A stretch of DNA of 64,000 bases. Source: Halothece sp. PCC 7418 (GTDB lineage Bacteria; Cyanobacteriota; Cyanobacteriia; Cyanobacteriales; Rubidibacteraceae). The stretch lies in NCBI RefSeq assembly GCF_000317635.1, contig NC_019779.1, positions 2,666,001-2,730,000 of the forward strand. The letters are read 5' to 3'. The translations under genes were made by a program, and so were the position numbers. Below, in pieces: positions 42,819 to 44,544 of the stretch; within the stretch, counting starts at the first letter, position 1; each line of letters begins with the position of its first letter. The notes beneath the pieces were generated by a model. The model had not been told where the DNA came from. It saw only the letters and a list, made by a program, of their open reading frames with translations, and made no database searches.

Positions 42819-42989
42819 ATGGCAGTTCCTAAGAAAAAACGATCTAAAGCCAAAAAACGCACTCACAAGTCACTCTGGAAGCGCAAAGCCTCCTTTGAAG
42901 CACAAAAAGCCTTATCCCTAGGCAAATCGGTTCTCAGTGGTCGCTCTACCTTCGTTTATCCTACTGATGAGGAGGACGACGAGGAGTGA
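42819..42989 (+). CDS. rpmF: 50S ribosomal protein L32; stop codon supplied by a mobile element
   Basis: The 56-residue protein [20 protein letters not shown] onward, ending [12 protein letters not shown], is cyanobacterial L32 of normal length and sequence. The last two codons and stop read GAG GAG TGA. The final G and the TGA belong to the inserted TnpB element (42986 onward). Removing the element restores GAG GAA TAA with the DNA at 44498. The protein is thus unchanged while stop codon and 3' UTR are replaced. The original terminator now lies at 44518. Confidence 0.95.
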
Positions 42990-43130
42990 CATCCTCCCCC
43001 GCTAAACTTCGTTATAGCGGGGGCTTCCTAGTTATTCCCATGGATGGGATTGCACCACTGATCTAAGACTGGAATCCCAGTCTCCCGACAGCCCGATTGC
43101 CTAGGCGTTTTGCTTCCCGCCTGTCCGACG
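42986..43130 (-). ncRNA. Predicted omega RNA (reRNA) of TnpB copy 2
   Basis: By the rule for known TnpB systems, the scaffold spans the end of tnpB and the right-end hairpin. The guide begins in the flank, here TCCTCGTCGTCCTCCT (42985 downward, antisense to the end of rpmF). The upstream boundary is a guess. Confidence 0.42.
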
Positions 43131-44302
43131 GTACTATTTATCTTTTCGATTCCTCGATTTCGTAGCACACAAGCAGCAGCCACATCCCGATCCGCGACTA
43201 AGTTGCACTGAGGACATTCATGAATCCTCACACTGAGATCTTTCCCAACATGAGTGCTACATCTTGGACAAGTTTGGGTGCTTCCTTTTGCATCCACTTC
43301 TGAGAAATACTTTCCCCGCTTCCAACACACTTCTTTTAGAATTTGTCGGAATTGTCCAAACCCTGCATCTAGCATATCTTTGCCAAACATCCCTTTGGCG
43401 GTCATGCGAAAATCTAAGTCTTCGACAAAAATCAGGTCTGCTTGATTGCACAGTTGGTGTGCGGTTTGGTGGTGGAAGTTTTTTCTGGCGTTATCAATTT
43501 TGTGGTGCAGTCGTGCTACTTTAAGTCTCTGCTTATGGTAGTTTTTAGACCCTCTCTTTTTTCGACTCAATCTGCGTTGGAGCAATCCCAGCTTCCTTTG
43601 CATGGTCTGGAAAAAGCGAGGCGGTTTCACGAAGAAACCGTCACTGGTCGCTAAAAACTCCTTTAAGCCAATATCCACACCGATTGCATAGCCACCCCCT
43701 CTTACATCTCCCCCAGTGGGGGAGAAAGAGAGGGGGGGAACATCCACGTTGCACTGAATGCAGACTATGGCGTACCAGCGATCCGCTTTCCTCACAACAC
43801 GCACTTGTTTCAAAGAGAATCCTGTGGGGATTTCTCGGTGCATTCTAATTCGGATTTCTCCGATTTTAGGCAACCTTAACTTATTTCCACTAATTGGGTA
43901 TTTCTCAAATTGTGGAAATAGGATTGATTTGAATTGCCCGTATTTCTTAAATCTGGGAAAGCCATATCCCCTTGAACGAAAATAGTCCCACGCCCTATGT
44001 AGCTGCTTGATTGTTTGCTGCAAGACTTGAGATGGGACTTTCTTTAATTTTGGGAATTGTTTCTTCGCTTTGGGAAGCGCGTTGAGTTGCTTTAACTCAC
44101 TGGGAAATTTTTCATCGGCGGGAATGATATATTCTGAGACTAAGCTGCATCGGTCAATACTACATTTTCGACTACCACACCAATCTTTAATCTCCCGCAA
44201 AGCATAGTTATACGCACTACGGCAGATTTCAAGAATCTCCGTGAGAGTTTCTTCCTGCTGTTTGTTGGGATAGATACGGTATCGGTAGTTGAGTGTGAGC
44301 AC
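43028..44302 (-). CDS. tnpB: TnpB RNA-guided endonuclease (IS605 OrfB family), copy 2
   Basis: The 424-residue TnpB starts at a GTG (MLTLNYRYRIYPNKQQEETL). RuvC-I is YAIGVDIGLKEFLATSDG, RuvC-II IFVEDLDFRMTAKG, the zinc ribbon CPRCSTHVG...HECPQCNL and RuvC-III VADRDVAAACVL, with all key residues present. Before RuvC-I there is an in-frame extra stretch (SPTGGDVRGG) encoded by a copy of the C/G-rich palindromic repeat (43694-43738). That explains part of the length difference from copy 1 (390 residues). Whether the protein is still active with this insert is unknown. Confidence 0.92.
   Translation of the reverse strand: MLTLNYRYRIYPNKQQEETLTEILEICRSAYNYALREIKDWCGSRKCSIDRCSLVSEYIIPADEKFPSELKQLNALPKAKKQFPKLKKVPSQVLQQTIKQLHRAWDYFRSRGYGFPRFKKYGQFKSILFPQFEKYPISGNKLRLPKIGEIRIRMHREIPTGFSLKQVRVVRKADRWYAIVCIQCNVDVPPLSFSPTGGDVRGGGYAIGVDIGLKEFLATSDGFFVKPPRFFQTMQRKLGLLQRRLSRKKRGSKNYHKQRLKVARLHHKIDNARKNFHHQTAHQLCNQADLIFVEDLDFRMTAKGMFGKDMLDAGFGQFRQILKEVCWKRGKYFSEVDAKGSTQTCPRCSTHVGKDLSVRIHECPQCNLVADRDVAAACVLRNRGIEKINSTVGQAGSKTPRQSGCRETGIPVLDQWCNPIHGNN
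43694..43738. repeat. C/G-rich palindromic repeat inside tnpB copy 2
   Basis: CACCCCCTCTTACATCTCCC, a short arm and GGGGGAGAAAGAGAGGGG repeat the layout of 23607-23647. The copy is in frame and encodes about 11 extra residues just before RuvC-I. Confidence 0.75.
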
Positions 44303-44517
44303 TGACCAAGTTGTTCAAGCATAGCTTTATTATAGGTTGCTTAGTAGAATGTGACAAGGTGCTAAGTTATGGACGCGCTTTCGCGCTTTTTTAATTTGGC
44401 TACGATTCATGAGGGGCTGTCATCTGAGGTCTCCTCAGATGTTTATACGCCTTCCCGTTAACCTCTGGTATAACGGGGGTCTTCTCGTCGCACTGAGATA
44501 AAATGCGCGATCGCATA

Positions 44518-44544
44518 AGTAGGGGCAACACGCCCTTACTTTTT
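44518..44544 (+). terminator. Displaced rpmF terminator
   Basis: AGTAGGGGC (44518-44526) pairs with GCCCTTACT (44532-44540), followed by TTTT. Removing the TnpB element would place this hairpin 20-30 nt after the original rpmF stop codon. The rest of the spacer to 44783 holds AT-rich DNA and no gene that I can support. Confidence 0.7.

Follow-up and report, generated by a model that had tools for sequence, protein, structure and literature searches.

How can a transposable element come to rest at the very end of a ribosomal protein gene and leave the product of that gene intact? The question is raised by rpmF, which encodes ribosomal protein L32, in Halothece sp. PCC 7418, a cyanobacterium with a genome of 4,179,170 bp in one contig. 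The window analysed here is a stretch of 64,000 nucleotides of that genome (NC_019779.1, positions 2,666,001 to 2,730,000), in which rpmF lies tail-to-tail with a tnpB-only (IS1341-like) element of the IS200/IS605 family, and the last four bases of the gene are element DNA. The geometry of this exchange, and its recurrence at other right ends of such elements, are described below. Our reading, to which we give a probability of about 0.85, is that IS200/IS605 elements landing opposite stop codons swap one stop for another, and that selection purges insertions within genes and leaves the stop-phase ones to survive.

The element supplies the stop codon of rpmF

The 3' end of rpmF reads GAC GAC GAG GA|G TGA, that is GACGAGGA|GTGA, the letters from 42986 onwards being those of the element. 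A sequence-only reading of this DNA had claimed as much, and had proposed in addition that the empty site was GAG GAA TAA and that the L32 protein is unchanged. Both proposals agree with what we find: the tetranucleotide ATAA directly follows the left end at 44497, and in L002, the nearest relative with 79% identity to the probe, rpmF carries no element and ends GAA GAA TAA. The change from the presumed ancestral GAA to GAG leaves glutamate in place, and the product matches the ribosomal L32p profile. The TAA at 44499–44501 would then be the stop stranded from rpmF. In all five same-genus relatives read, the element is absent and the stop is TAA.

Other parts of the sequence-only reading needed amendment. 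It had let the element run from 42986 to 44544; the right end is as it said, and the element proper ends at 44497. The terminator that it took to be stranded at 44518–44544 is supported as a hairpin, whose scanned position is 44517–44541, in a scan that is weak by itself (four terminator-like sites versus 2.0 in shuffles). It had also expected GAATAA plus a hairpin in close relatives. L002 does carry a AGTAGGGGC...GCCCTTACT hairpin 3' of rpmF, with a tail poorer in T, but the hairpin is not general among the five relatives: it is clear in L002 only, L005 (G002) is loosely similar and the other three have different 3' sequence. The test that the sequence-only reading set for itself is accordingly passed in L002 alone.

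The exchange follows from the motifs at the two ends. Read on the element strand, most target motifs are TTA-N, and the element finishes at its right end in TCAC; the reverse complements are N-TAA and G-TGA. An insertion that faces a stop codon in the appropriate phase hence trades TAA for TGA. Because the motif is usually one antisense stop and the right end is another, such landings preserve the end of the gene. The exchange also puts a G in the third position of the final codon. For codons ending in A, other than ATA, this is silent; more generally, the last residue is kept where the previous codon had A (again with the exception of ATA) or G in that position or belonged to a four-fold box. 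At 24 left-end junctions read by eye the next four bases are ATAA in 15, TTAA in seven, CTAA in one and GTAG in one, the cleanest being the two that are backed by a relative, rpmF (ATAA) and rpsN (GTAG). Among the elements printed for this purpose, 5 of 15 were unread in one set and 13 of 16 candidates were taken as left ends in another; a generic search for a left-end motif missed most loci. A group of named loci, which partly overlaps the survey sample described below and enters no count, gave TTAT at most of its readable members.

Stop exchange recurs across the order

Read in reverse, the right end of the rpmF element (GTGACATCCTCC) has nine copies in the host genome. At four of them a long host frame (in the case of rpmF, the gene itself) meets its first in-frame stop in the TGA of the element. 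An exact 17-mer taken from this right end hardly occurs outside the host genome (3 of 388 genomes). A right-end pattern was searched in 156 genomes of the order; 48 had a match, with at least 150 places among the matches listed. The analysed sample comprises 139 right ends from 44 genomes out of 150 places listed, 11 having been dropped: three without a stem as judged by eye, three at contig starts in G095 and five of the 25 listed copies of G092. The 20 flank positions beside the 139 right ends hold 0.00–0.09 bits each, the element side being fixed by the search pattern, and conservation thus stops at the element boundary. A strict count that allows no bulges gives at least six unbroken pairs from the base at 60 of the 139, with 53 different 5' arms.

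Frames open for at least 100 codons up to the junction number 25, 2 and 3 of 139 in frames 0 (the element TGA as stop), +1 and +2 respectively; at 60 codons or more the counts are 31, 9 and 9. Stop-phase junctions thus make up 18% of the sample, roughly a tenfold excess over the 1.6% (424/26,212) of random NTAA sites. The pattern is 19, 2 and 3 of 113 when G000 and G092 are omitted, and 8.3, 1.1 and 1.6 of 44 when each genome contributes one site. When genes are called, 24 of the 139 right ends, plus rpmF, are swaps, spread over 16 of the 44 genomes. These calls require a gene of 80 codons with a start codon, rpmF (56 codons) being added by hand, and are a slightly different set from the 25 open frames, which run from stop to stop over at least 100 codons and do not include rpmF. 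The sequence-only reading had treated rpmF as a tolerated, near-neutral landing; the stop exchange that it described is real, but that account is too small, for the pattern recurs and rpmF is one instance of it.

The null sample consisted of 40 fresh regions of 20 kb (800 kb; two contain stretches of N) from genomes of the same sample, and replaced an earlier host-flank null in which few TAA stops were counted, a shortfall put down to edge effects. For 139 sites it predicts 2.2, 18.5 and 12.4 open frames (0, +1, +2) at NTAA and 1.9, 19.8 and 4.8 at ATAA. Among sites not interior to genes, swaps are 24/119 versus 292/6,318 for NTAA (odds ratio 5.2, p 2e-9), and relative to sites at most 60 bp downstream of gene ends they are 24:18 versus 292:729 (odds ratio 3.3, p 2e-4), the p-values assuming independent sites. 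A simple longest-open-reading-frame caller was used on null and observed sites alike; its edges for 'inside a gene' differed (30 bases for the null, 2 for the observed), and for real sites the classification used only the host flank and the first 60 bases on the element side. A longer motif, ATAAA, was considered as the cause of the excess but is not supported: in host flanks its swap share matches that of ATAA.

Two loci show a second phase of exchange, in which the junction splits the host stop TA|G, a host TA and an element G together making TAG; the frames open before these stops are 832 (L174) and 589 (L190) codons long, and neither was counted as a swap. G092 holds 49 right-end copies in one genome. 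Mutual alignments of the 20 copies fetched (L259–L278) stop at many points, as if many copies were short or decayed, and the element end points could not be placed by aligning these 20.

Three swapped genes keep their ends

A Pfam family is matched by 21 of the 24 swapped genes and by none of the remaining three (L169, L200, L228). They include ribosomal protein S14 (rpsN), TldD/PmbA-type peptidases in two genomes, SurE, parts of ATP-binding cassette (ABC) transporters, an alpha-amylase and an S49 peptidase. Orthologue ends were compared for rpmF and four swapped genes (rpsN, the binding protein, the S49 peptidase and SurE). The swapped S14 aligns with the NCBI model to its last position, and the same final Trp closes rpsN in all seven matched relatives (eight searched), followed by TAG in six and TAA in one. 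The ending is TGG TGA in G147, which has the element, and TGG TAG in the same-genus genome G070. In both G005 and G003 the binding protein closes with WTIEK TAA. The gene end is thus preserved for three genes, rpmF, rpsN and the binding protein.

A second subfamily also swaps stops

Right ends in TCAA are found in other TnpB groups of the host genome, in one of which the element TGA terminates a 258-codon TrkA-domain frame. The prediction that this subfamily would also swap stops was set after that case and before the wider search, which found 18 TCAA-type sites in 11 of the 156 genomes. Frames open for at least 100 codons were 4, 0 and 2 of 18 (frame 0, p 1.7e-4 against the NTAA null). Two of the four swapped genes, hemB (in the host genome) and dnaB, encode proteins that match their models up to at most two positions from the end; the others encode a DUF5615 protein and one without a family. 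At L024, downstream of tnpB, a TCAA-type element with a divergent tnpA nearby (L319) sits, by eye, one base past the TAA of a convergent 125-codon frame.

Anatomy of the rpmF element

The rpmF element has the traits of the IS1341 group of IS200/IS605: TnpB domains, subterminal imperfect palindromes and a short target motif without target duplication (Table 1). The group is defined by the absence of the Y1 transposase TnpA, and none of the nine Y1 matches in the genome falls inside the element. Its TnpB matches solved TnpB chains, 8bf8 and 8exa among them, in a structure-chain comparison; in the single alignment shown, with an AI-designed nuclease, it keeps the presumed RuvC D-E-D residues. Folding of 42986–43040, the right-end hairpin region, gives −18.8 kcal/mol (z −3.9); the left-end hairpin is visible by eye. 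As a member of its group the element would be mobilised in trans by TnpA, with an omega RNA to guide the TnpB nuclease; there was no Rfam match at gathering scores within the window.

In G000 there are 45 TnpB-like matches (E 0.001 or better) versus nine Y1 transposase matches. The other TnpB element of the window (~1030–1890), with a TCAA-type right end near 1030, abuts a frame that by eye resembles an RNA-binding protein; VGNLPYEVTEQEV continues directly out of this element, which seemingly sits at the gene's 5' end.

Table 1. Features of the rpmF locus (positions in the window)
Feature	Position	Strand	Remarks
rpmF (ribosomal protein L32)	42819..42989	+	56 codons plus stop; last 4 bases (G TGA) are element DNA
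Flank, putative guide of the TnpB omega RNA	42966..42985	-	Antisense to last rpmF codons; role suggested by known TnpB biology
tnpB-only IS200/IS605 (IS1341-like) element	42986..44497	-	1512 bp; right end 42986, left end 44497
GTGA, reverse complement of right-end TCAC	42986..42989	+	Gives rpmF the third base of its last codon and its TGA stop
Subterminal right-end hairpin (CCCCCGC...GCGGGGG)	42996..43023		6 nt past the new stop
tnpB	43028..44302	-	424 aa, open; OrfB_IS605, Cas12f1-like TNB and HTH_OrfB domains
Target motif beside the left end	44498..44501		ATAA on +, TTAT on the element strand
Intrinsic-terminator-like hairpin	44517..44541	+	Presumed former rpmF terminator, now ~1.5 kb downstream

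Discussion

How might an element come to exchange stops in this way? By analogy with its family, it would enter single-stranded DNA 3' of TTA-N. Its target and right-end motifs are alike, presumably as the transposase reads both via guide bases, and this likeness would make the exchange of stop for stop automatic: the gene opposite the target loses its TAA and gains the TGA of the element. Most insertions within genes would then be removed by selection, and the stop-phase ones would persist even in ribosomal-protein, hemB and dnaB genes, with the hairpin of the right end, six bases beyond the new stop, possibly replacing the lost terminator. Purifying selection probably accounts for most of the pattern.

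Could selection account for all of it? Insertion would then be random among TTA-N sites, stop-phase copies would be the least harmful, and the stop content of the element ends would be a lucky by-product. We regard this as roughly an even bet. The strong depletion of sites inside genes (20/139, versus 4,876/6,496 or 75% of ATAA sites) is what such an account demands, as is frame +1, with two seen and 18–20 expected, but swaps exceed even the NTAA sites at most 60 bp past gene ends, which should be about equally harmless (the odds ratio of 3.3 above). Hidden constraints on those downstream sites, such as terminators or the promoters of the next genes, could be the source of this excess; a bias in targeting, or better persistence of the guide in coding sequence, are other possible sources.

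The last of these belongs to an account that we consider rather unlikely, in which copies at stop codons simply last longer, either since loss of the right end removes the host's stop, or since the guide matches conserved coding sequence next to the transposon-associated motif (TAM), favouring homing back. The guides of swapped copies do sit in coding 3' ends by geometry, as read at rpmF, but tnpB is intact at 8/25 swaps versus 36/94 intergenic sites, no clear difference, with tnpB not visible for some sites near contig ends. The same comparison lends no support to the idea that swap sites are mainly old relics. That rpmF alone is special, a single chance landing of one insertion in one gene, absent from the five same-genus relatives, is most improbable given 24 more swaps among 139 sites and a second subfamily.

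Several points weigh against our own reading of stop exchange followed by selection. The left ends were read by eye with the cut placed before NTAA, which makes those junctions partly circular; they cover a minority of the 139 sites, and the named locus L099 reads TGAT, not TTAT. In the TCAA subfamily, compared with the NTAA null, no left end was read. Drawing the sample by an exact right-end pattern biases it to well-kept ends, and the deficit in frame +2 is weak under the ATAA null (three seen, 4.8 expected). Among the orthologues, the binding protein is four residues longer in G002, the last residue of the S49 peptidase (L226) is E where G005 and G003 have D, and for SurE (L230), whose orthologues vary in their last residues, the empty site is not proven.

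IS608, the studied model of the family, offers a close comparison. Its left cleavage site (CL) is TTAC and its right one (CR) TCAA, and it inserts 3' of TTAC, the target being recognised by base pairing with guide bases (available part of PMC5934647). On our own reading of these motifs, they too would convert GTAA to TTGA on the opposite strand; an exchange of stop codons is not mentioned in the part of that paper available to us. IS608 shares with the rpmF element its TnpB domains, subterminal hairpins and insertion 3' of a short motif, and differs from it in that the rpmF element lacks tnpA.

Elements that donate gene ends are known elsewhere. In Coxiella burnetii, the miniature inverted-repeat transposable elements (MITEs) QMITE1 and QMITE2 give host genes such as ubiB and kdgK a stop codon, sometimes with a few residues; unlike the rpmF element they have inverted repeats and direct repeats, eight of the 11 listed genes gain residues, and a matched stop-for-stop rule is not stated (PMC5896051, as far as accessible). 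In Borrelia, the final 8 nt of a lipoprotein coding region are shared with an IS605-type end (IS605B), which also forms the 3' hairpin of the gene. There, unlike at rpmF, the left end is involved, the stop is TAA and transposase remnants are missing, and no general rule is drawn from these stem-loops in the accessible text (PMC2775950).

Integrases that rebuild the 3' ends of tRNAs or genes likewise restore the end of the gene entered. They carry a copy of one specific gene end, whereas the 4-base end motif of an rpmF-type element suits any suitable stop. In the accessible portion of the open-access literature we found no earlier statement that the target motif and end of IS200/IS605 elements form a stop-codon pair.

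More speculatively, the target motif and right end of many IS200/IS605 elements may be kept as a matched antisense stop pair (TTA/TCA = TAA/TGA), a built-in safe-harbour system that would allow entry into essential genes without change to the protein and would place the TnpB guide in conserved coding sequence with the stop codon as TAM, favouring homing into empty alleles. We hold this only tentatively; IS608 (TTAC/TCAA) fits it and ISDra2 (TTGAT) does not.

Annotators should note that a TGA stop may belong to the end of a transposon when CATCCTCC-type sequence comes after it. For the family, stop-for-stop exchange explains how elements can reside in dnaB, hemB and ribosomal-protein genes without cutting them short, gives an expectation of which TAMs will be frequent, and addresses the open question of why TnpB elements are so abundant and their target motifs so shaped. 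Its recurrence in many cyanobacterial genomes suggests a built-in way of entering genes without breaking them.
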